From: Bradyrhizobium sp. NP1
GTDB lineage: Bacteria; Pseudomonadota; Alphaproteobacteria; Rhizobiales; Xanthobacteraceae
Direction of reading: 5' to 3'
DNA: 64,000 bases
Assembly (NCBI RefSeq): GCF_030378205.1
Contig: NZ_CP127385.1
Span: forward strand, 2,520,001 to 2,584,000
Shown: positions 35,002 through 44,840 of the stretch, in pieces
Numbering within the stretch: the first letter of the stretch is position 1
Layout of the letters: each line of letters begins with the position of its first letter
The notes under the pieces: generated by a model
Seen by the model: the letters and a program-made list of their open reading frames with translations, nothing else
Databases searched by the model: none
What the model was told of the DNA's origin: nothing
Made by a program: the position numbers and the translations under genes

Positions 35002-38000
35002 CTATTCCGCTGCCGCCGCAAACCGGCTGTTCTCCAGCTCCGCTTTCAGCCGCGAACGCTCGGCGGCGGCCTTGGCCATGCTCGCTTCCTTGATGTGGCC
35101 GTAGCCGCGGATCGTTTCCGGAATGCGCGCAAGCCGCGCCAGCAGCGGGATCTGCTCCGTTTTCAGGCCAGCCGTGCGCTCGTCGATCATCGCGAAATAA
35201 TCCTCGACCAGCCTGCGTTCGGCCTTGCGCTCGGCGGTACGGCCAAAGATGTCGAACGCGGTGCCGCGCAAAAATTTCAGCCGCGCCAGGAGGCGGAAGG
35301 CCGACATCATCCAGCCGCCGAATTCCTGCTTCTGCAACCTGCCGGTTCTCTTGTCGCGGCGCGCGAAGATCGGCGGCGCCATATAGAACTTGAGACTGAA
35401 ATCACCTTCGAATTTCTCGCCGATCTTGCTGGCAAAGCTGCCGTCGGTGTAGAGCCGCGCGACCTCGTATTCGTCCTTGTAGGCCATCAGCTTGAACAGG
35501 TTTTTCGCGACCGCTTCGGTCAATTCGGTCGAGGCGGGCGCAACGGCGCCTTCCGCCTTGCGCACCTTGCCGACGGCTTCGCGGTAGCGCGCGGCATAGG
35601 CTTCGTCCTGGTAGCCGGTCAGAAATTCCGCGCGCAGATCGATGGTCTCGTCGAGCGTCCGCGTTGCGGTCGCCGGACGCGTGCGGAACTGCAGCACGCT
35701 GCGCACCCGCGACAGGTCATGCGCGGCGAGCCGGCCCCAGGTAAAGGCCTGCTTGTTCATTTCGATCGCGGCGCCGTTGATCTCGATCGCGCGCAGGATC
35801 GCTTCCAGCGACAGCGGGATCGCCCCCTTCTGGAAGGCATAGCCGAGCATGAAGGCGTTGGTCGCGATGCTGTCGCCCATCAGCGTCGTCGCCATGCCGG
35901 TGGCGTCGATGATGTCGAGATTGTTGTCGCCGATGGCGTCGCGCAGCGCACTCCGCATCGCGCCCATCTCGAAATCGATGTCCGGATTCTGCACGAAGCT
36001 CGCGGTCGGCTGCAGGTCGGCGTTGACGAAGGCTTTGGTGACACCGCGCTCGGCGCGGCTGAGCGCGGGGTCGCTGACGGACACCACGATGTCGCAGCCG
36101 AGGATGAGGTCGGCGCCTCCCGAGGTGATGCGGACGGTCGAGATGTCCTCCGGCCTGGGCGCGATCCGCACATGGCTCATGACCGCGCCGTTCTTCTGCG
36201 CAAGGCCCGTGAAGTCGAGCGCGGAGCAGCCGCGGCCGTCGACATGGGCGGCCATGCCGAGCAGGGCGCCGATGGTGATGACGCCGGTGCCGCCGATGCC
36301 GGTGACGAGGATGTTGTAGGGGCCGTCGAGCGGGCGTACCGGCGGCAGCGGCAGGTCGGCGAACAGCTGGCCGGAATCGACCGCCGTATTCCTGGCGCGC
36401 TTGAGCGTGCCGCCATGCACGGTGACGAAGCTCGGGCAAAACCCCTCGACGCAGGAATAGTCCTTGTTGCAGTTCGACTGGTCGATCTGGCGCTTGCGGC
36501 CGAACTCGGTCTCCAGCGGCTGCACCGAGACGCAGTTCGAGGCGGCCGAGCAGTCGCCGCAGCCTTCGCAGACGAGATCGTTGATGAAGACGCGCTTGGG
36601 CGGATCGGGATAGAGCCCGCGCTTGCGGCGCCGCCGCTTCTCGGCCGCGCAGGTCTGGTCGTAGATCAGGGCTGACAGCCCCTTGACCTCGCGCAATTCG
36701 CGCTGCAGCGCGTCCATCTCGCGGCGGTGATGCACGGTGGCGCCGGGCGGGAAGTAGTTCGCGGGGTATTTGTCGGGATCGTCGGAGACAATCGCAAGCC
36801 GCTTCGTCCCCTCGGCCCAGACCTGGTGCGCGATCTGCGCGACATTGAAGCGCCCTTCCGCGGGCTGACCGCCGGTCATTGCGACCGCATCGTTATAGAG
36901 GATCTTGTAGGTGATGTTGACGCCGGCGGCTGACGCGGCGCGCAGCGCCAGCAGGCCCGAATGGGTATAGGTGCCGTCGCCGAGATTCTGGAAGACGTGG
37001 TCTTCGCTGGTGAAGGGCGCCTGTCCGATCCAGTTCGCACCTTCGCCGCCCATATGCGTGATGGTCGCGGTGCGCCGCGCCGGGATGTAGAGCGCCATGC
37101 CGTGGCAGCCGATGCCGGCCATGGCGCGGCTGCCCTCGGGCAATTTGGTCGAGGTGTTGTGCGGACAGCCCGAGCAGAAATAGGGCGTGCGCTGCAGCGT
37201 GATGGGCGTGCTCGCCGCGACCGGGGCGTCGAAGGCCTCCAGCCGCGCCAGACGCTGCTCGAGCACCGGGTTCGGCGGCCCGAGCCGCCGCAGCCGGGCC
37301 ATCAGCGCGGAAGCGACGATGGTCGGCGTCAATTCGCCCTCGCTCGGCAGTAGCGGGCGGCCTGCCTCGTCGCGCTTGCCGACCACGGTGGGCCGATTCC
37401 AGGCATCCACATTGTAGAGGATGCGCATCAGCTGGTCCTCGATGAAGCCGCGCTTCTCCTCGACCACCAGCACGTCCTGCAAGCCCTCGGCGAAGCGCTT
37501 GGCGCCTTCCTCTTCCAGCGGCCAGGTCAGCGCCACCTTGTAGATGCGCAGTCCCAGCGCCTTGGCCTCGCGGTCGGTGATCCCGAGATCGGCCATGGCC
37601 TGCCGCAGATCGAGATAGGCCTTGCCGGTTGCGATGATGCCGAGCCGCGCCGGCTTGGCGTCGAGCACGATTCTGTCGAGCTTGTTGGCGCGCACGAAGG
37701 CTGCAACCGCGGCCATCTTCGCCCCGAACAGCCGCCGTTCCTGCTCCAGCGGCGGATCGGGCCAGCGGATGTTGAGGCCGTCGGGCGGCATCTCGAAATC
37801 GCTTGGCGTCACGATCTCGATCCGCGACGGGTCGCTGTCGATCGAGGCGGAGCTTTCCACCGTCTCGGAGATCGCCTTGAAGCCGACCCAGCAACCGGAA
37901 TAGCGCGACAGCGCAAAGCCATAGAGGCCGAGGTCGAGATAATCCTGCAGCGTCGACGGATTGAGGATCGGGATCAGCGCGGCGGCAAACACCTGCTCGC

Positions 38001-38475
38001 TCTGATGCGCCAGCGTCGAGGACTGGCAGCCATGGTCGTCGCCGGCGAGCGCCAGCACGCCGCCATGGCGCGAGGAGCCGGCCGAATTGGCATGCTTGAG
38101 CGCATCGACCGAGCGGTCGACGCCCGGTCCCTTGCCGTACCAGATGCCGAACACGCCATCGACCTTGGCGCCCGGAAACAGGCCAACCTGCTGGCTGCCC
38201 CAGACCGCTGTTGCGGCAAGGTCCTCATTCAGGCCGGGGACGAAGGCGATGTCCTGCGCCTGCAGGAAGGATTTCGCGCGCCACAGCGCGTGGTCGTACA
38301 TGCCAAGCGGCGAGCCGCGATAGCCGGAGATGAAGCCCGCGGTGCTGAGGTTTGCGCGCCGGTCCCGTTCGCGCTGCAACATGGGCAGCCGCACCAGCGC
38401 CTGGACGCCTGAGAGATAGATTCGCTTGGTCTCGAGCCGGTATTTGTCGTCGAGCCCAACCTCCATCAGCGTCAT
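35002..38475 (-). CDS. Indolepyruvate ferredoxin oxidoreductase fusion (IorA-IorB)
   Basis: A 1157-residue fused 2-oxoacid:ferredoxin oxidoreductase. The N-terminal half is IorA-like: SGYRGSPLGMYD, then TPP and Cys motifs in PYFCSGCPHNTST. A ferredoxin-like segment carries CEGCGDCSAASNC and CNKDYSCVEGFCPSF, and the C-terminal half is IorB-like (ILVTGIGGTGVITIGALLGMAAH). It oxidatively decarboxylates arylpyruvates to acyl-CoA with ferredoxin. ATG 38475 has GGAG 8 nt upstream; ATG 38466 is possible. Monocistronic, upstream of the Sox region. Confidence 0.93.
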   Translation of the reverse strand: MTLMEVGLDDKYRLETKRIYLSGVQALVRLPMLQRERDRRANLSTAGFISGYRGSPLGMYDHALWRAKSFLQAQDIAFVPGLNEDLAATAVWGSQQVGLFPGAKVDGVFGIWYGKGPGVDRSVDALKHANSAGSSRHGGVLALAGDDHGCQSSTLAHQSEQVFAAALIPILNPSTLQDYLDLGLYGFALSRYSGCWVGFKAISETVESSASIDSDPSRIEIVTPSDFEMPPDGLNIRWPDPPLEQERRLFGAKMAAVAAFVRANKLDRIVLDAKPARLGIIATGKAYLDLRQAMADLGITDREAKALGLRIYKVALTWPLEEEGAKRFAEGLQDVLVVEEKRGFIEDQLMRILYNVDAWNRPTVVGKRDEAGRPLLPSEGELTPTIVASALMARLRRLGPPNPVLEQRLARLEAFDAPVAASTPITLQRTPYFCSGCPHNTSTKLPEGSRAMAGIGCHGMALYIPARRTATITHMGGEGANWIGQAPFTSEDHVFQNLGDGTYTHSGLLALRAASAAGVNITYKILYNDAVAMTGGQPAEGRFNVAQIAHQVWAEGTKRLAIVSDDPDKYPANYFPPGATVHHRREMDALQRELREVKGLSALIYDQTCAAEKRRRRKRGLYPDPPKRVFINDLVCEGCGDCSAASNCVSVQPLETEFGRKRQIDQSNCNKDYSCVEGFCPSFVTVHGGTLKRARNTAVDSGQLFADLPLPPVRPLDGPYNILVTGIGGTGVITIGALLGMAAHVDGRGCSALDFTGLAQKNGAVMSHVRIAPRPEDISTVRITSGGADLILGCDIVVSVSDPALSRAERGVTKAFVNADLQPTASFVQNPDIDFEMGAMRSALRDAIGDNNLDIIDATGMATTLMGDSIATNAFMLGYAFQKGAIPLSLEAILRAIEINGAAIEMNKQAFTWGRLAAHDLSRVRSVLQFRTRPATATRTLDETIDLRAEFLTGYQDEAYAARYREAVGKVRKAEGAVAPASTELTEAVAKNLFKLMAYKDEYEVARLYTDGSFASKIGEKFEGDFSLKFYMAPPIFARRDKRTGRLQKQEFGGWMMSAFRLLARLKFLRGTAFDIFGRTAERKAERRLVEDYFAMIDERTAGLKTEQIPLLARLARIPETIRGYGHIKEASMAKAAAERSRLKAELENSRFAAAAE

Positions 38476-38641: not shown

Positions 38642-38674
38642 GGCAGTACGGGTGCGCCTCATGGCCGTACTGCC
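38642..38674 (-). terminator. Perfect 10-bp hairpin spanning the soxA stop
   Basis: GGCAGTACGG (38642-38651) pairs with CCGTACTGCC (38665-38674); the loop contains the soxA stop codon (38659-38661). No U-run follows on the minus strand. It is probably the 3' end structure of the Sox transcript. Confidence 0.4.
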
Positions 38675-39438
38675 GGTGTCTCCATCGCCATGCCGCTGGC
38701 GCGCGTCATCAGATAGAGCTCGAGCGCCACCAGCTCCGGCGCGCCATAGTCGTAAGGTTGCGCGCGGATGCCAAAGATGCAGGCGCGCAGCCGGCGCTGC
38801 AGCGAGCCGAGCGACTGCCATTCCAGCCGGTACTCCGGATAGCCGGTCGGATGGGCTTGCGTGATCGGCGAGCCGGCGAGGCGCTTGTCCCAATTGTCGT
38901 CATGGCAGTTGGCGCAGGCGAGGTTGAGCTGGCCCTGCCGCTGCATGAACAGTCTTTGGCCCTGCGCGACGAACGGCTTGAGCTGCGGATCCTCCCCGGC
39001 CGTGATCGGAAGCCCGCGCGACTGCGCGGCGACGAAGGCGGTGAGCGCCAGCAGGTCGTGGCTTTCGTTCGCAAGCGGCGGTGCCTGTTGATGCCGGCTG
39101 CGCTCCAGGTTGATGCGCTGCGTGAGGTCCACCGGCCGGCCGAGCGCCGCGTCGAAGGCGGGATAGCGGGCGGCGAGACCCTTCATGCTGGCGCGGGCGT
39201 CGCCGTGACAGTCGGCGCAGGCCTTGTCCGCGCTGCCGGCCTTGGCGTTCCACAGCTTCTCGCCGTCGACCACCCAGAGCATGCCCGGATTGGCCGTCTC
39301 GTCGTTCTGCATGACCTGGCTTTCCGGCCCCATGAAGGTGAAGCCGGAGCGGCGCTGGTCGCGCGGGATGTCCGCGGCGGTGACCGACGCGGCGGCAAAT
39401 AGCAGCGCCGCAACAGCTATCGCCGGCAGAACCTTCAT
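38659..39438 (-). CDS. soxA: Diheme cytochrome SoxA
   Basis: A 259-residue periplasmic cytochrome with a signal peptide (LPAIAVAALLFAAASVTA). Heme motifs are C74-ADCH and C175-ANCH. SoxA-specific MGPESQVMQNDETANPGMLW is near residue 36, and the C220 heme ligand/active-site cysteine is in LQRRLRACIFGIRAQP. With SoxX it would attach a sulfur substrate to the SoxY cysteine oxidatively. ATG 39438 overlaps the soxZ stop (ATGA), showing translational coupling. Confidence 0.92.
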   Translation of the reverse strand: MKVLPAIAVAALLFAAASVTAADIPRDQRRSGFTFMGPESQVMQNDETANPGMLWVVDGEKLWNAKAGSADKACADCHGDARASMKGLAARYPAFDAALGRPVDLTQRINLERSRHQQAPPLANESHDLLALTAFVAAQSRGLPITAGEDPQLKPFVAQGQRLFMQRQGQLNLACANCHDDNWDKRLAGSPITQAHPTGYPEYRLEWQSLGSLQRRLRACIFGIRAQPYDYGAPELVALELYLMTRASGMAMETPAVRP

Positions 39439-39755
39439 TCGACCGTGATGGCGGCGGACGCGGTTTCGGAAAATCCCTTGTCGCCGATCCATTCGAACTC
39501 GAACTTGCCGCTCTCGCTCGCGACCGTGAAGAAGGAGAAGAAGGGATTGGCGGCGATTGCCGGGAACAGATCGGCGCGGAAAATCTCCTTGCCGTTGAAG
39601 CGGCAACTGAAGTTGGTGATGATGTCGCGCGGGACCTTTTCGCCAGCGGCCGTATAGCGATAGCCGGTCTCCATGATGTGCGACATCAGCGTCTTGATCT
39701 CGATCACATCGCCGCGTTTGGCCTTGGCCGGGACGTTGATCAGGGCTGACGGCAT
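39435..39755 (-). CDS. soxZ: Sulfur carrier partner SoxZ
   Basis: A 106-residue immunoglobulin-like protein with the SoxZ features KAKRGDVIEIKTLMSHIMETGYR, NFSCRFNGKEIFRADLFPAI and NPFFSFFTVASESG. It has no signal peptide and is normally exported as a complex with Tat-bearing SoxY. Its start overlaps the soxY stop in TGATG, with the consensus SD GGAGGTGATC immediately upstream. Confidence 0.94.
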   Translation of the reverse strand: MPSALINVPAKAKRGDVIEIKTLMSHIMETGYRYTAAGEKVPRDIITNFSCRFNGKEIFRADLFPAIAANPFFSFFTVASESGKFEFEWIGDKGFSETASAAITVE

Positions 39756-40234
39756 CAGATCACCTCCTCGGTGCAGGCGGCGAGCGTGACCACGACGTCG
39801 ACGGCGGCCTGCCAGAAACTGCCGTCCGAAAGCTGTGCGATCGCCACCACCTTCTGGCTGTCGGCAAGCCGGATGCGGGTTGCGACCTGCGCGCGGCCGG
39901 CCTGCGGTGTCAGGTAGAAATTGCCGATATTGGGCTGCGGGTTCTTCTCGTTGAAGACGTGGATGCTCTTGACGTGATCCTCCGCCGTCATCGGGCTGTC
40001 GACGCTGACCGTCATCGGCACGGTATTGCCGTTCTCAACCAGCGGCGGGATGTCGAGCTTGACCTTGCCGGTCCTGACCGGGGCCTCGCCGACGACGTTG
40101 CGGATCGCGGAAGCCAGCATGGCCGGCGTCGCCTCCAGTGGCCGCAGCGTGATCACGGGCAATGCGGCCGCAACCGCGGCGCTGCCGGTCAGCTTCAGGA
40201 AACGGCGGCGGGTGGATGGGTCTCCCTGACGCAT
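39755..40234 (-). CDS. soxY: SoxY-like sulfur carrier with AACTEEVI arm
   Basis: A 159-residue protein with a Tat leader (RRRFLKLTGSAAVAAALP) and the SoxY fold (MTVSVDSPMTAEDHVKSIHV, FYLTPQAGRAQVATRIRLAD). Canonical SoxY ends in GGCGG, whose cysteine carries the substrate; here the end is LAACTEEVI with C154 six residues from the terminus. I recall a named SoxY-related paralogue family with an AACIE arm, which this fits. ATG 40234 follows GAGG and lies 10 bp from palindrome A; the frame could extend into the palindrome to 40312. Confidence 0.85.
   Translation of the reverse strand: MRQGDPSTRRRFLKLTGSAAVAAALPVITLRPLEATPAMLASAIRNVVGEAPVRTGKVKLDIPPLVENGNTVPMTVSVDSPMTAEDHVKSIHVFNEKNPQPNIGNFYLTPQAGRAQVATRIRLADSQKVVAIAQLSDGSFWQAAVDVVVTLAACTEEVI
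39757..39766 (-). promoter_or_regulatory. Consensus Shine-Dalgarno of soxZ inside the soxY 3' end
   Basis: GGAGGTGATC directly precedes TGATG, the soxY stop/soxZ start. The same bases encode the last residues of SoxY (EEVI), so the non-canonical tail and the translation signal are one sequence. Confidence 0.7.
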
Positions 40235-40244
40235 GCGAAGGCCT

Positions 40245-40322
40245 CTAGTACCCGCTTTCCGAAGTTCGTGAGTCATTTGCCGCAATCTCCTCTTACGAAC
40301 TTCGGAAAGCAAAGGGTACTAG
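40245..40322. repeat. Palindromic element A (CTAGTACCC-bounded)
   Basis: Outer arms CTAGTACCC (40245-40253) and GGGTACTAG (40314-40322); inner 16-bp perfect stem GCTTTCCGAAGTTCGT (40254-40269) with its complement at 40295-40310; 25-nt loop. It carries no coding capacity. Confidence 0.8.
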
Positions 40323-40334
40323 CAAGCTAACGTT

Positions 40335-40413
40335 CTAGTACCGCTTTCGATTTGAAGTCCGCCTTGCCGATTCGTGGAAGCCTGTGTGGCGGACTTCAAA
40401 TCGGCGGTACTAG
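40335..40413. repeat. Palindromic element B (CTAGTACCG-bounded)
   Basis: Outer arms CTAGTACCG (40335-40343) and CGGTACTAG (40405-40413); inner 15-bp stem GATTTGAAGTCCGCC (40349-40363) with its complement at 40388-40402. The CTAG at its right end supplies the soxX stop codon (40410-40412). It lies 12 bp from element A. Confidence 0.8.
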
Positions 40414-40859
40414 TCGCGCAAGGTTACGAGATAGGCCACGATGTCCTCGATCTGGTCGGCGGACAGGATCGGCTTGCCCCGCCAGGCGGGGCCAACCCGA
40501 TCTAGTCCTTCGGCGCGGTAATAGGAGGGCATGATGGTTGCGGGATTGAGATGGGAGGCATCGACCAGCCGCAGCCTTAGCTGGGCCGCCGAGGCGCGGC
40601 TCCCGGCGCCGGCGAGGCTGGGCGCAAGATCACCCTGGAACCGGGTTTCCGGAAACGGGCCGGAATGGCAGAGGATGCAGGTCGAGGTGCGGTCGAGCAC
40701 CAGCGCCCGGCCGTGCGCGGGATCGCCGGGCACCCCGGTGAGCGATTGCGGAATGCCGTCGCCGACGACGGCGTAGGGCTTGAGTGCCTGCGCCGCCGCG
40801 CTGCACGGCAGCGCCAGGATCAGCGCAAGCGCGGCGCGTCGATTGAGCCGCCTAGCCAA
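40410..40859 (-). CDS. soxX: Monoheme cytochrome SoxX
   Basis: A 149-residue periplasmic cytochrome with a signal peptide (RAALALILALPCSAAA), heme motif C61-ILCH and the axial methionine in ATIMPSYYRAEG (M110). The RGKPILSADQIEDIVAYLVTLR end is typical of SoxX. The start is TTG 40859: GGGAGAGGCG is just upstream, and the longer frame in the flavoprotein gene is Arg/Pro-rich shadow sequence. It overlaps the flavoprotein stop by 8 nt. It partners SoxA. Confidence 0.88.
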   Translation of the reverse strand: MARRLNRRAALALILALPCSAAAQALKPYAVVGDGIPQSLTGVPGDPAHGRALVLDRTSTCILCHSGPFPETRFQGDLAPSLAGAGSRASAAQLRLRLVDASHLNPATIMPSYYRAEGLDRVGPAWRGKPILSADQIEDIVAYLVTLRD

Positions 40860-42135
40860 ACGCCTCTCCCGTGATGGTCTTGAACCATTGCCGCGCCGCC
40901 TCGGCCTCGCGTGCGCGCTGCTCGCGCGGCGCATCGACAGGGCTCGTGCCGGCGGCCTCGACCTCGGCGAAGATGTCGTCCTTCGGCTGGTAGATGCCGG
41001 CGAGCGAGAACGCATAATCCGGTGCCACAATGTTGTAGCAGAAGCCGGCAAGCCGTGGCGTCTCCGGCGTTTTTCCCGAGAGCAGGCTGGCGATCGCGGC
41101 CGCACAGGCTTTGGCCTGGGCGCTCGCGGCGGATGCCGATTTGGGAATGCCGCCGCCGAGACAGGCATCGCCGATCACATGGGTGTTGGGCACGAGCTTC
41201 GAGGCGAAGGTTGAGGGATCGATCGGGCACCAGCCGGTATGGTCGGTGGCGCCGGCGATCTCGGCGATGCGTCCGGCCCGCTGCGGCGGGATCACATTGG
41301 CCACATCAGCCTTGTAGTCGCCGAACTCGGTGACAATCGTATTGGTCGACGGATCGACGGAGGTGACGCGGCCACCCTGCGAGATCGAGATCCGTTCGAT
41401 CAGCCCGCCATAAAGCTCCTTCCAGGCATTCTCGAACAGCTTCTGCTGCGCAAATGAGTCCTTGGCGTCGAGGATCAGCACCTTCGAGCGCGGCTTTTTT
41501 TCTTTCAGATAATGCGCGATGAGGCTGGCGCGTTCGTAAGGCGCGGGCGGGCAGCGCATCGGGTTGGCGGGCACCGCGAGCACGACCACGCCGCCATCCT
41601 CCATCGCCTCCAATTGCCTGCGCAGCAGCACGGTCTGCTCGCCGGCCTTCCAGGCATGCGGCATCTTGCGTGAGGCCGCCTCGTCATAGCCGGGCAGGGC
41701 GTCGAAGCGCACTTCGATTCCCGGCGCCAGCACCAGGCGGTCGAAGGTAAGCGACGTGCCGTCGGCTAGGGTGAGATTGCGCGCCTGCGCGTCGATCTTC
41801 GTGGCGGCCTGTGCCACCACGGTGATGCCACTGGCCGCGATGCGGTCATAGCCGAATTGCTGCGCCTCGATATCGCGCAGGCCGGCGATCACCTCATTGC
41901 TGCCGGGGCAGGCGGTGTAGGTCGGGTTCGACTCGATCAACGTCACGCCGAGCTTCGGGTCGATCTGGCGCAACGCGCGCGCGCAGGCCGCCCCCGCAAA
42001 GCCGCCGCCGACCACGACGATCCGCGCCGCGCTTTGGGCGCGGGCGAGACGCGGCAAGGCGAGGGAGGCGGCCGACGCTGCGACGCCGCCAACGACGGTT
42101 CTCCGCGTCACCGGGCGCAACGCTTCCATCAGCAT
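40852..42135 (-). CDS. Flavocytochrome c sulfide dehydrogenase flavoprotein subunit (FccB/SoxF-like)
   Basis: A 427-residue FAD protein with a Tat leader (TRRTVVGGVAASAASLAL). FAD motif RIVVVGGGFAGAACARAL, and the two redox cysteines expected for FccB are present (MRCPPAPYERAS and FCYNIVAPDYAFS), plus ACPGSNEVIAGL. It oxidises sulfide or a protein-bound sulfane, passing electrons to a c-type cytochrome; SoxX or SoxA could serve, as no FccA gene is visible. It follows an intrinsic terminator by only 8 nt, and its RBS is weak. ATG 42129 is an alternative. Confidence 0.92.
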   Translation of the reverse strand: MLMEALRPVTRRTVVGGVAASAASLALPRLARAQSAARIVVVGGGFAGAACARALRQIDPKLGVTLIESNPTYTACPGSNEVIAGLRDIEAQQFGYDRIAASGITVVAQAATKIDAQARNLTLADGTSLTFDRLVLAPGIEVRFDALPGYDEAASRKMPHAWKAGEQTVLLRRQLEAMEDGGVVVLAVPANPMRCPPAPYERASLIAHYLKEKKPRSKVLILDAKDSFAQQKLFENAWKELYGGLIERISISQGGRVTSVDPSTNTIVTEFGDYKADVANVIPPQRAGRIAEIAGATDHTGWCPIDPSTFASKLVPNTHVIGDACLGGGIPKSASAASAQAKACAAAIASLLSGKTPETPRLAGFCYNIVAPDYAFSLAGIYQPKDDIFAEVEAAGTSPVDAPREQRAREAEAARQWFKTITGEAFG

Positions 42136-42143
42136 ATGTTCCG

Positions 42144-42176
42144 AAAAAAAGGGCGGCGGCCGAATCCGGCCGCCGC
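42144..42176 (-). terminator. Intrinsic terminator between molybdenum hydroxylase and sulfide dehydrogenase genes
   Basis: On the minus strand GCGGCGGCCG (42176-42167 side) pairs with CGGCCGCCGC over a 4-base loop, followed within two bases by seven T. The stem-loop starts 10 nt after the hydroxylase stop and the T-run ends 8 nt before the flavoprotein ATG. This is the only hairpin with a U-run that I found in the window. Confidence 0.85.
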
Positions 42177-42185
42177 GCTACTCTA

Positions 42186-44369
42186 TCAGGCGAAGGTGAT
42201 GTTGAGATCCCGCAACGGCACCGAACGGATGCGTTTTCCGGTGGCGGCGAAATAGGCATTGAGTACCGCCGGACCCGCGACGCAGATCGTGGGCTCGCCG
42301 ACGCCGCCCCAGAAGCCGCCGCTCGGCATGATGATCGATTCGACCTTCGGCATCTCGGCAATTCGCATCGAATTGTAGGTGTCGAAATTGGTCTGCTCGA
42401 TCTTGCCGTCCTTCACCGTGCAGCCGCCGTAGAACAGGCCGGTCAGCCCGTAGACGAAGGAGCCGGCGATCTGCCGCTCGATCTGCGCCGGATTGACCGC
42501 ATAGCCGGGGTCGGTGGCGGCGACGATCCGGCGCACCTTGATCTTGCTGCCGTCGATCACCGAGATTTCCGCGGCGGCGGCGACATAGCTGCCATAGCCC
42601 ATGTGCTGGGCGAGGCCGCGGAAGACGCCCTGCGGCGCCGGCTTGTCCCAGCCGATCTTCTCGGCCACGGCATTGAGCACCGCCAGATGCTTCGGATGGC
42701 TTGCCATCAGCTTGCGCCGGAATTCGAGCGGGTCCTTTCCGGCAGCCTGCGCGATCTCGTCCATGAAGCATTCGAGATAGACCGCGTTCTGGTTCACGTT
42801 CACGCCGCGCCAGAAGCCCGGAATGATGTGCGGGTTGCGCATCGCGTGCTCGATCAGGAGGTTCGGTACCGAGTATCCGATCGCGGCATCGCCGTTCGGG
42901 GCAAGGCCGGCGAAGGTCGCCGGGTCCTTGCCGTTGACCAGCGCTTCCGGGCGCAGGCTGAACAGGATCGACTGCCCCGAGATCCGCATGTGCAGGGCGG
43001 TCAGGTTGCCGTCGGCGTCGAGGCCTGCGGTCATCTTGCACTGCGTGATCGGGTGGTAGCGGCCGCGCAGCATGTCCTCCTCGCGCGACCACAACAGCTT
43101 GATCGGCGTGCCCGGCATCTGCTTGGCGATTGCGACCGCCTGGCTGACATAGTCGGTCTGGCCGCGCCGGCCGAAGCCGCCGCCGAGCATCTGCTTGTGC
43201 ACGTCGCATTTGCTGGCGGGCAGGCCCGAAGCTTCCAGCACCGCGGCGAACGCCGCTTCGCCGTTCTGCGTGCCGGTCCAGACCTCGCACTTGTCCGCGG
43301 TGTAGAGCGCGGTGGCATTCAGCGGCTCCATCGCGGCGTGGTTCTGGTAGGGATAGTTGTAGACGGCTTCGACTTTCCTGGCGGCGCTGCCGAGCGCAGC
43401 CTTGACGTCGCCATTCTCGTTGCCGACGAAGGCAGGGCCCGACTCGAGCCCTTCCGCCAGCCATTTCGCGATCGAGGCCGAGGTGACCTTGGCATTCTCG
43501 CCCTCGTCCCAGACGATGGGCAGCGCCTCGAGCGCGGTCTTGGCGTGCCACCAGGTGTCGGCGACGACGGCGACCGCGCTGTCGCCGACCCGCACCACCT
43601 TCTTCACGCCCTTCATGCCGGCGATCTTGGCCTCGTCGTAGCTCTTGAGCTTGCCGCCGGTGACCGGGCAATCCTTGATCGCCGCGTTCAGCATGCCCGG
43701 CAGCTTGACGTCGATGCCATAGACGGTCGTGCCGGTGACCTTGTCGGGGCTGTCGAGCCGCTTGATCGGCTTGCCTGCGACCTTCCAGTCCTTCGGGTCC
43801 TTCAGCTTGACCTCGGTCGGCGGGGTGAGCTTGGCGGCGGCTTCCGCGACCTTGCCGTAGGTCGTGGTCTTGCCCGAGGCCGTGTGGCTGATGACGCCGT
43901 TCGCAACGGTGCATTCGCCGGCCGGCACCTTCCACTCATTGGCGGCGGCCTGAATCAGCATCATGCGCGCGGTGGCGCCGCCTTTGCGCACATAGTCCTG
44001 CGAGGTGCGGATGCCGCGGCTGCCGCCGGTGGAGAAATCGCCCCAGGCGCGGTTGCGCGCGACGCTCTGGCCCGGAGTCGGAAATTCGGTGACGACCTTC
44101 GACCAGTCGCATTCGAGTTCCTCGGCGACGAGCTGGGCAAGGCCGGTCAGCGATCCCTGGCCCATTTCCGAGCGCGCGATGCGGATCACGACGGTATCGT
44201 CGGGCCGGACCACGACCCAGGCGTTGACCTCGGGCGAGCCGTCGGCGGCGCGCACCACGGAGGGGCCGCCAAAGGGAAGATCGAGGCCGAGCGCGAGGCC
44301 GGCGCCGGCTGCGGCCGTGCCGATGACGAAGGAACGGCGGTTGAGCATGGGTTTGACGTGCTGGTTCAT
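42186..44369 (-). CDS. Molybdenum hydroxylase large subunit (isoquinoline 1-oxidoreductase beta/CoxL-like)
   Basis: A 727-residue molybdopterin-binding subunit with a Tat leader (LNRRSFVIGTAAAGAGLALG). Family features: RSEMGQGSLTGLAQLVAEEL, TGGSRGIRTSQDYVR, MLGGGFGRRGQTDYV and the catalytic glutamate E692 in GGVGEPTICVAG. It is periplasmic, unlike classical xanthine dehydrogenases, and lacks an FAD subunit in the cluster. It probably hydroxylates an aldehyde or N-heterocycle and passes electrons via the Fe-S subunit to a cytochrome. Ends at the intrinsic terminator. Confidence 0.9.
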   Translation of the reverse strand: MNQHVKPMLNRRSFVIGTAAAGAGLALGLDLPFGGPSVVRAADGSPEVNAWVVVRPDDTVVIRIARSEMGQGSLTGLAQLVAEELECDWSKVVTEFPTPGQSVARNRAWGDFSTGGSRGIRTSQDYVRKGGATARMMLIQAAANEWKVPAGECTVANGVISHTASGKTTTYGKVAEAAAKLTPPTEVKLKDPKDWKVAGKPIKRLDSPDKVTGTTVYGIDVKLPGMLNAAIKDCPVTGGKLKSYDEAKIAGMKGVKKVVRVGDSAVAVVADTWWHAKTALEALPIVWDEGENAKVTSASIAKWLAEGLESGPAFVGNENGDVKAALGSAARKVEAVYNYPYQNHAAMEPLNATALYTADKCEVWTGTQNGEAAFAAVLEASGLPASKCDVHKQMLGGGFGRRGQTDYVSQAVAIAKQMPGTPIKLLWSREEDMLRGRYHPITQCKMTAGLDADGNLTALHMRISGQSILFSLRPEALVNGKDPATFAGLAPNGDAAIGYSVPNLLIEHAMRNPHIIPGFWRGVNVNQNAVYLECFMDEIAQAAGKDPLEFRRKLMASHPKHLAVLNAVAEKIGWDKPAPQGVFRGLAQHMGYGSYVAAAAEISVIDGSKIKVRRIVAATDPGYAVNPAQIERQIAGSFVYGLTGLFYGGCTVKDGKIEQTNFDTYNSMRIAEMPKVESIIMPSGGFWGGVGEPTICVAGPAVLNAYFAATGKRIRSVPLRDLNITFA

Positions 44370-44381
44370 GAGCAGCCTCCC

Positions 44382-44840
44382 TCAAGCGTTCGCGGCGGCG
44401 TGAATCGCCTCGCGCACCTGCTGGAAGGTGCCGCAGCGGCAGATATTGGTGATGGCCTCGTCGATATCCTGGTCGGTCGGCTTCGGCTTCTCCTTGAGCA
44501 GCGCCGCCACCGCCATGATCATCCCGCTCTGGCAATAGCCGCATTGCGGCACGTCGTTGGCGAGCCAGGCCTGCTGCACCTTGTGCAGCGCGGCGCCGGA
44601 GGCTAGCCCCTCGATGGTGGTGATCTGCTTGCCGGCGGCATCAGCCACCGAAACGCTGCAGGATCGCATTGCAACGCCGTCGATATGGACGGTGCAGGCG
44701 CCGCATTGTGCAATGCCGCAGCCGTATTTCGTTCCGGTCAGCCCGACGTTCTCCCGGATCGCCCACAGAAGGGGCGTATCGTCCTCGACGTCAACATTGA
44801 TCGTCTTGCCGTTTATGATGAGGTTTGCCATCGCATCCAC
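44382..44840 (-). CDS. [2Fe-2S] subunit of the molybdenum hydroxylase
   Basis: A 152-residue two-cluster protein. Plant-type [2Fe-2S] cysteines lie in [18 protein letters not shown] plus SCSVSV; the second cluster has QCGYCQSGM and NICRCGTF. It lacks a signal, so it is presumably exported together with the Tat-bearing large subunit. ATG 44831 (second Met) is possible. First gene of the hydroxylase transcript; the 175 bp upstream should hold its promoter, but I see no clear motif. Confidence 0.93.

Follow-up and report, generated by a model that had tools for sequence, protein, structure and literature searches.

A cluster of seven closely spaced genes lies on the minus strand of a 64,000-nucleotide stretch of the Bradyrhizobium sp. 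NP1 genome (contig NZ_CP127385.1; the window), running from position 44840 down to 38659. In order, it encodes a [2Fe-2S] protein, the large subunit of a xanthine-oxidase-family molybdenum hydroxylase (labelled MoL here), an FccB-type flavoprotein, SoxX, SoxY, SoxZ and SoxA; its spacing and conservation suggest a single operon. Judging from sequence features, we hold, with belief and doubt about evenly balanced, that this set is a variant of the Sox system free of SoxB and SoxCD whose natural partner would be the periplasmic molybdenum hydroxylase instead of the thiosulfate pathway, and that it probably acts on organic sulfur. The module would read [2Fe-2S]-MoL-(FccA)-(FccB)-SoxX-SoxY(xAC)-SoxZ-SoxA, xAC denoting the arm class of SoxY. 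A first-pass annotation had delimited the element as 38659..42135. Its five genes, their order FccB-SoxX-SoxY-SoxZ-SoxA and their identities were confirmed by curated models and Pfam domains, but the span was two genes short, as the upstream molybdenum hydroxylase pair belongs to the conserved unit.

Arm class of SoxY and signatures of the Sox proteins

SoxY (39755..40234, minus strand; open frame to 40312) was taken in its form of 159 amino acids, as in P0001, on the basis of a protein search limited to 8000 candidates that served this start only. It is a member of TIGR04487, "SoxY-related AACIE arm protein" (SoxY_para_1), with 238 bits at a cut-off of 172, and falls below the cut-off of the GGCGG model TIGR04488 (112 versus 125 bits). 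The named AACIE family that the first-pass annotation had mentioned is therefore TIGR04487, its placement of the SoxY cysteine in AACTEEVI instead of GGCGG was borne out at the C-terminus, and the comparison with both profiles that it had proposed came out for AACIE. The family name states no function, and the model is narrower than the xAC class, with members of the same clade scoring below its cut-off (e.g., 129 bits in genome G019 and 140 bits in G101). Sampling of 146 genomes from the genus, 297 from the order and 398 from the phylum gave TIGR04487 over its cut-off in 120, 17 and 15, respectively; five of the 17 hits in the order sample, all from the same genus (G171, G216, G270, G035, G143), were left unread. 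Given the match to TIGR04487 and the presence of the same class in 120/146 genomes of the genus, a damaged or mis-sequenced GGCGG SoxY was rejected.

An alignment of 31 module rows against 9 or 10 canonical rows, a chosen subset of the fetched loci, revealed that the SoxY cysteine is invariant in 31/31 module rows and that the residue preceding it is Ala in all 31 and Gly in 10/10 canonical rows. The SoxY tails carry AC in 48/48 cases and Asp or Glu at position +2 from the cysteine in 44/48. In the SoxY tree, a branch with a support of 98/97 separates the 37 xAC rows from 18 GGC rows; the trees comprised 55 SoxY rows and 53 MoL rows, again chosen subsets of the fetched loci.

The remaining Sox proteins of the cluster match curated models as well. 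SoxX (40410..40850, minus strand) is a c-type cytochrome with 71 bits to TIGR04485 (cut-off 61), whose start codon is unsettled within an open frame to 41168. SoxZ (39435..39755, minus strand; PF08770) reaches 86.9 bits to TIGR04490 (cut-off 76). SoxA (38659..39438, minus strand) starts probably at 39438 in an open frame to 39606; it is of the diheme type with the active-site cysteine present, and scores 226 bits to TIGR04484 (cut-off 110) and 166 bits to the diheme SoxA 1h31. In 31/31 module rows, SoxX retains CxxCH and Met, and SoxA retains both CxxCH motifs, the active-site cysteine and its Arg neighbours; the residue that we take to be the catalytic cysteine of SoxA fits the 1h31 alignment. 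The SoxA of the window has Glu where 30/31 module SoxA rows have Cys near haem 1, a position that, by the same alignment, presumably corresponds to the haem-1 axial ligand.

Two further kinds of SoxY were encountered. Locus L184 has a SoxY-SoxZ pair without a Cys tail that fits no class. Another kind of cluster, seen in several genera including Sinorhizobium meliloti on pSymA (L181, L182, L185, L311), combines soxY and soxZ with FccB or FccAB; the SoxY tails of L181, L182 and L185 read GGCLT or GGCGL, and neither soxXA nor soxB was seen within the stretches of these four loci.

Linkage to the molybdenum hydroxylase

MoL (42186..44369, minus strand; PF02738/PF20256) carries a twin-arginine (TAT)-type signal. 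Its best solved relative is the aldehyde dehydrogenase large subunit 8gy3_C (249 bits), to which it is homologous over 716 residues. The adjoining [2Fe-2S] subunit (44382..44840, minus strand; PF00111 and PF01799) shares 58-91% identity with its counterparts in related loci. The MoCoBD domains, the [2Fe-2S] partner and a catalytic-type Glu point to membership in the xanthine-oxidase family; this Glu was present in 36/36 module-type and 17/17 paralogue MoL rows, and all 36 module-type rows also match a loose twin-arginine pattern. Although homologous to the periplasmic molybdenum aldehyde dehydrogenase (8gy3)/isoquinoline-oxidoreductase type, the module MoLs form a distinct group. They are 61-100% identical, with the next paralogue at 45% (8 genomes), and a quick tree set the 36 module-type rows apart from the 17 paralogues; intermediate copies at 51-52% occur in G730 and G986.

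All 26 xAC loci chosen by SoxY, window included, contain MoL, SoxX, SoxZ and SoxA; in one of them (L148) MoL is truncated by the end of the contig, which leaves the [2Fe-2S] gene out of view. MoL was also found in 77 of the 80 named loci, which are the best 80 of 227 and mostly from Bradyrhizobium; the other three (L060, L064, L079) hold only some 0.5-1.6 kb upstream. In a contrast set of GGCGG loci, SoxB was present in 10/10 and MoL in 0/10. The co-occurrence with the molybdenum hydroxylase, which the first-pass annotation had suggested to examine, is thus strongly positive. A search with MoL among 385 genomes sampled from the class gave matches at E-values up to 1e-220 in 31 of them, representing 22 genera. 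A combined table of 51 loci holds 44 complete ones with MoL and SoxXYZA from 27 genera; these 44 were selected for having MoL, so that the table informs on FccB and SoxB, not on MoL. No SoxB, SoxC or SoxD was seen in the 51 module-related stretches, a few of which are only 3-5 kb long. The same set appears in annotated records of Methylobacterium sp. NMS14P, Neorhizobium galegae and Roseomonas marmotae, with the SoxY tails AACLEG, PACAEN and GACVETG, respectively. Furthermore, SoxA is followed directly in L142, and at a short distance in L153, by a gene for XdhC, the maturation factor of the xanthine-oxidase family.

The distances in SoxY and MoL correlate (r = 0.80, n = 33, 0/2000 permutations). 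Rows of family f109, which belongs to another class of the phylum, has small genomes and is perhaps Polynucleobacter, stand beside the family of the window in both the SoxY and the MoL tree, and the module was therefore probably transferred between classes as a block. The consulted part of a Polynucleobacter genome paper likewise mentions a small cluster of sox genes (Pnuc_1154-1157) and states that the organism has sox genes in common with Bradyrhizobium and not with its own family (PMC3308952).

Occurrence in genomes without SoxB

With regard to INDEPENDENCE from SoxB, 29 of the 61 genomes searched have a SoxB over the cut-off (16/20, 5/7 and 8/34 by sample) and 32 do not; all 61 have the module or its MoL, except G251, which is known just for its canonical set. 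The scores are well separated, with at least 808 bits for hits over the cut-off and 174 bits for the best one below it. Among the 32 SoxB-free genomes, 27 reach a completeness of 90% or more with no more than 5% contamination, and five consist of a single contig (G065, G583, G833, G418, G966). A single SoxY, of xAC type, is present in 21 of the 32; ten have two or three SoxY, and G418 has none. A soxB functionally coupled to the cluster, named by the first-pass annotation as potential counter-evidence, was thus not found. Since the module is conserved over 27 genera, often as the sole Sox set, an absence of function is argued against.

The host genome itself, complete at 7.7 Mb, has a canonical sox cluster (L155) about 1.8 Mb from the window (C1:2520001-2584000) and apart from its set, as a search for canonical genes elsewhere revealed. 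SoxC (656 bits), SoxB (820), SoxA (232), SoxZ (129), SoxX (88) and a GGCGG SoxY (150) are each over the cut-off there; a putative SoxD was named from its position alone, as no NCBIfam model matched. The sole SoxB match of the genome over the cut-off lies at C1:744823-746478, in agreement with the earlier statement that the window lacks SoxB. The accompanying statement on SoxCD holds for the genes inspected around the cluster, none of which encodes it, but no search of the window or genome with SoxC or SoxD models was made. In comparison with the canonical soxXYZABCD system, the module shares SoxX, SoxZ and SoxA that match curated models as well as the haem and active-site residues of SoxXA. 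It differs in a SoxY that falls short of the GGCGG model, in a unit in which no SoxB or SoxCD was seen, in the xanthine-oxidase-family partner, and in its occurrence in genomes without SoxB over the cut-off.

We regard it as highly improbable that the SoxXYZA paralogues constitute an isoenzyme set that modulates or extends ordinary thiosulfate oxidation with a SoxB encoded elsewhere. The presence of SoxB and SoxC elsewhere in the host genome, the 29 of 61 genomes with SoxB and the conserved active site of SoxXA would agree with such a role. However, it is largely refuted by the 32 of 61 genomes without SoxB over the cut-off, and the SoxY of the window stays below the cut-off of TIGR04488. B. 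diazoefficiens has two soxY genes, and its thiosulfate oxidation requires just soxY1 of the canonical locus, according to the accessible part of the respective study (PMC5748708). A second sox cluster has been described for Starkeya novella (PMC3797975, as far as the consulted sections go); it consists of soxX2Y2Z2A2F2 and a xanthine-oxidase-family molybdenum enzyme and lacks SoxB and SoxCD. Its transcripts were very low on thiosulfate, methanol and glucose; the SoxAX and SoxYZ proteins were undetected, and one flavocytochrome subunit was detected at a low level. The authors considered either that it has no functional significance or that it is important under other conditions. This cluster has the same composition as the module (SoxAX, SoxYZ, a SoxF-like flavocytochrome and a xanthine-oxidase-family molybdenum enzyme), but the report concerns one organism, judges the cluster possibly functionless and, in the sections consulted, does not name the arm class; we liken the two by description, not by sequence. 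As far as these sources go, the published physiology fits a non-thiosulfate role, and the earlier proposal that the set handles something other than thiosulfate is probably correct, in view of the sole need for soxY1 in B. diazoefficiens.

We also consider it improbable that MoL and its [2Fe-2S] partner substitute for SoxCD as an alternative sulfane dehydrogenase, oxidizing the SoxY-bound sulfane itself. MoL occurs in units in which SoxCD was not seen, and both are periplasmic molybdenum enzymes with water as the oxygen donor, albeit of different families. In contrast, without SoxB the sulfate would stay on the arm in 32 of the 61 genomes, the best solved relative of MoL is an aldehyde dehydrogenase, and MoL occurs without adjacent Sox genes.

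A third SoxYZ carrier of the host genome (L156) is a fused SoxYZ (TIGR04557, 284 bits) adjoining a quinoprotein-relay zinc hydrolase (TIGR04559). As portrayed in the accessible part of PMC12997753, this relay likewise ties a SoxYZ-type carrier to a non-Sox oxidoreductase. However, its carrier is fused and linked to PQQ dehydrogenases, and the SoxY and SoxZ of the window reach only 66 and 30 bits to TIGR04557 at a cut-off of 140.

Flavoprotein and neighbouring genes

The FccB-like flavoprotein (40852..42135, minus strand; PF21706, PF09242), of the flavocytochrome c sulfide dehydrogenase (FCSD) type, scores 447 bits to 5n1t and 388 bits to 1fcd among the solved FCSD flavoproteins. It is an optional member of the module, being present in 24 of the 44 complete loci; in two of these (L178, L256) it shares about 40% identity and is located on the far side of soxA. 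The 20 loci in which it was not seen comprise 15 stretches of 16 kb, four short ones (L226, L230, L245, L246) and L148, whose MoL is cut by the contig end. The first-pass suggestion that the flavoprotein supplies the missing oxidation step was thus rejected as a general explanation, given its absence from view in 20/44 complete loci, 15 of them 16 kb long, and the presence of MoL in 26/26 loci selected by SoxY. No FccA cytochrome is encoded between MoL and FccB in the window, where the 51-base gap (42135-42186) contains no CxxCH. Among 98 loci with MoL and FccB, an FccA-like cytochrome lies between the two in 19 and is lacking in the window and 78 others, nearly all Bradyrhizobium-type. An FccB without its usual cytochrome partner, as in the window, is odd.

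Immediately downstream of soxA, at 35002-38475, lies a large gene of the indolepyruvate ferredoxin oxidoreductase family (NF009588, DUF6537). Because it is present in only 22 of 85 Bradyrhizobium-type and near-relative loci, it is probably not a member of the module. The ABC ATPase upstream of the cluster was found in 2/85 of these loci and a lyase-like gene in 0/85; the permease and the binding protein of the window lie beyond the 8-kb flanks of the 85 loci, and their zero counts carry no meaning. Loci L298 and L301 were kept outside the analysis, and L299 served as a BLAST target only.

Discussion

In the proposed function of the module, SoxXA would couple a sulfur compound oxidatively to the cysteine of the SoxYZ arm; the most likely candidates are an organic thiol and sulfide released from such a thiol. 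The molybdenum hydroxylase would then oxidize the carbon part of the organosulfur substrate with oxygen from water, either on the carrier or just before loading, and the electrons would pass to c-type cytochromes, namely SoxXA, FccA or a neighbouring cytochrome c. Where present, FccAB may remove sulfide. The change in the arm, with Ala for Gly before the cysteine and usually an acidic residue at +2, would accompany the change of partner. The components with their conservation, the clade, the co-occurrence and the lack of SoxB in many genomes were observed; the loading with organic sulfur, the role of the molybdenum enzyme and the electron route are inferred.

Several observations weigh against this reading. 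The partnership of MoL and SoxYZ is a putative one, and shared descent alone may partly yield the correlation of SoxY and MoL distances. None of the searches for recurrent neighbours gave a gene pointing to the substrate; apart from the FccA-like cytochrome, they returned only ABC ATPases of scattered occurrence, LysR regulators and a small number of genes common to three genera, including a cytochrome c and a two-component system. Some SoxB-free genomes additionally have a GGC-type SoxY beside SoxZ (L267, L268, L270, L271, L282). In B. diazoefficiens, soxY2 is probably of the xAC type, since the loci labelled with this species (L064, L101) carry that type; for strain USDA110 the assignment is by elimination, which counts as a weak point of the reading. 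Moreover, MoL is found without Sox genes in the stretches read of L260 and L264. MoL occurs in 38 plasmid records (30 listed), and seven plasmid regions were read, namely six of the MoL records and L308, which was found by SoxY. In five of the seven (L302, L303, L304, L305, L307), from Methylosinus OB3b, S. meliloti, Sinorhizobium sp. C101, S. medicae and Rhizobium sp. 007, no Sox gene lies within 6 kb of MoL, and their MoL rows nest inside the module clade. Departures in the Sox genes themselves also count here: the complete, single-contig genome G418 (L258) keeps MoL, the [2Fe-2S] protein, SoxX and SoxA, and no SoxY was found in it, and in the diverged loci L261 and L266 (MoL at 50-52%) SoxY, SoxZ and SoxA are present and no SoxX was detected.

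Other loci help to place these departures. The module is present in the remaining two of the seven plasmid regions (L306, L308) and in L310, which was found by SoxY as well. The Rhizobiaceae MoL rows without Sox group with those of G285 and G247, and a similar cytochrome c and two-component system are found near both the Sox-less Rhizobiaceae MoL genes and the modules of G285 and G247. G765 and G915 show no Sox genes in short MoL stretches. In G734, an FccB-SoxX-xAC SoxY-SoxZ-SoxA set lies on another contig than MoL, at least 50 kb from contig ends, and in G986 a second MoL (L261) stands beside SoxY, SoxZ and SoxA, with no SoxX detected there. The notion that MoL is strictly bound to Sox was given up in view of L260, L264 and the plasmid loci. 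The dependence is lopsided: the xAC SoxY accompanies MoL, but MoL is not always found with SoxY. The simplest reading of the Sox-less MoL loci is a repeated loss or relocation of SoxXYZA. As a separate observation, the module-type MoL of L302 (Methylosinus pOB3b1), which has no adjoining Sox genes, lies beside a multihaem cytochrome and an arylsulfatase gene.

The partnership might reflect operon structure only, with SoxXA as the electron acceptor of the molybdenum hydroxylase and SoxYZ as a non-functional remnant, an explanation that we consider about as improbable as a sulfane dehydrogenase. G418, with MoL, SoxX and SoxA and no SoxY, would be in line with it, as would the Sinorhizobium MoL loci, which have an adjoining cytochrome c instead. 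In contrast, the presence of the SoxY cysteine in all 31 aligned rows and all 48 tails indicates that SoxY is under selection, just one of the 32 SoxB-free genomes is without SoxY, and L261 and L266 keep SoxY, SoxZ and SoxA with no SoxX detected.

Slightly less improbable, but still unlikely in our estimate, is a periplasmic repair function, in which SoxXA and the xAC-type SoxYZ would make and carry sulfane sulfur, derived from sulfide with the aid of FccAB, to restore the terminal Mo=S ligand of MoL, which enzymes of the xanthine-oxidase family require. A separate periplasmic route would be needed because XdhC acts in the cytoplasm, out of reach of an exported enzyme. Repair accounts for the lopsided dependence, as the xAC SoxY was found to share its locus, or in G734 its genome, with MoL, and MoL occurs also without adjacent Sox genes. 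It accounts as well for the optional nature of FccAB and for the absence of SoxB and SoxCD, since these would use up the sulfane; XdhC is encoded beside some modules. On the other hand, many loci show no FccAB and all steps of this route are inferred. We know of no precedent for such a repair, nor of other exported members of the family that need it.

Somewhat more tentatively than the organic sulfur reading, and at a little under an even chance, we propose that the SoxYZ arm and the periplasmic molybdenum hydroxylase form one SoxB-free machine, in which the arm would either present organosulfur to the enzyme or hand over sulfane for the rebuilding of Mo=S.

Two elements of this picture are already known, namely the protein class, which has a name, and the gene combination, which was noted in one organism (S. 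novella). The consulted part of PMC11582611 contains nothing on the module. As a widespread, SoxB-independent, arm-linked unit, it was not found in the literature searched, a statement that applies to this literature and does not claim a wider absence from print.

The presence of soxXYZA readily leads to an organism being scored as a thiosulfate oxidizer. If the module serves another purpose than thiosulfate oxidation, this assignment is mistaken wherever the module is the sole Sox set, as in the 21 of 32 SoxB-free genomes with one SoxY of the xAC type. The AACIE exception class of NCBI gains a recurrent partner and, therefore, a testable function. If true, the reading would account for the dispensability of soxY2 in the thiosulfate oxidation of B. 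diazoefficiens and would give the SoxYZ arm, in addition to its part in the quinoprotein relay, one more role outside thiosulfate oxidation. Should the arm indeed present organosulfur to the molybdenum enzyme, many Proteobacteria would possess a route for organic sulfur that relies on a carrier protein.

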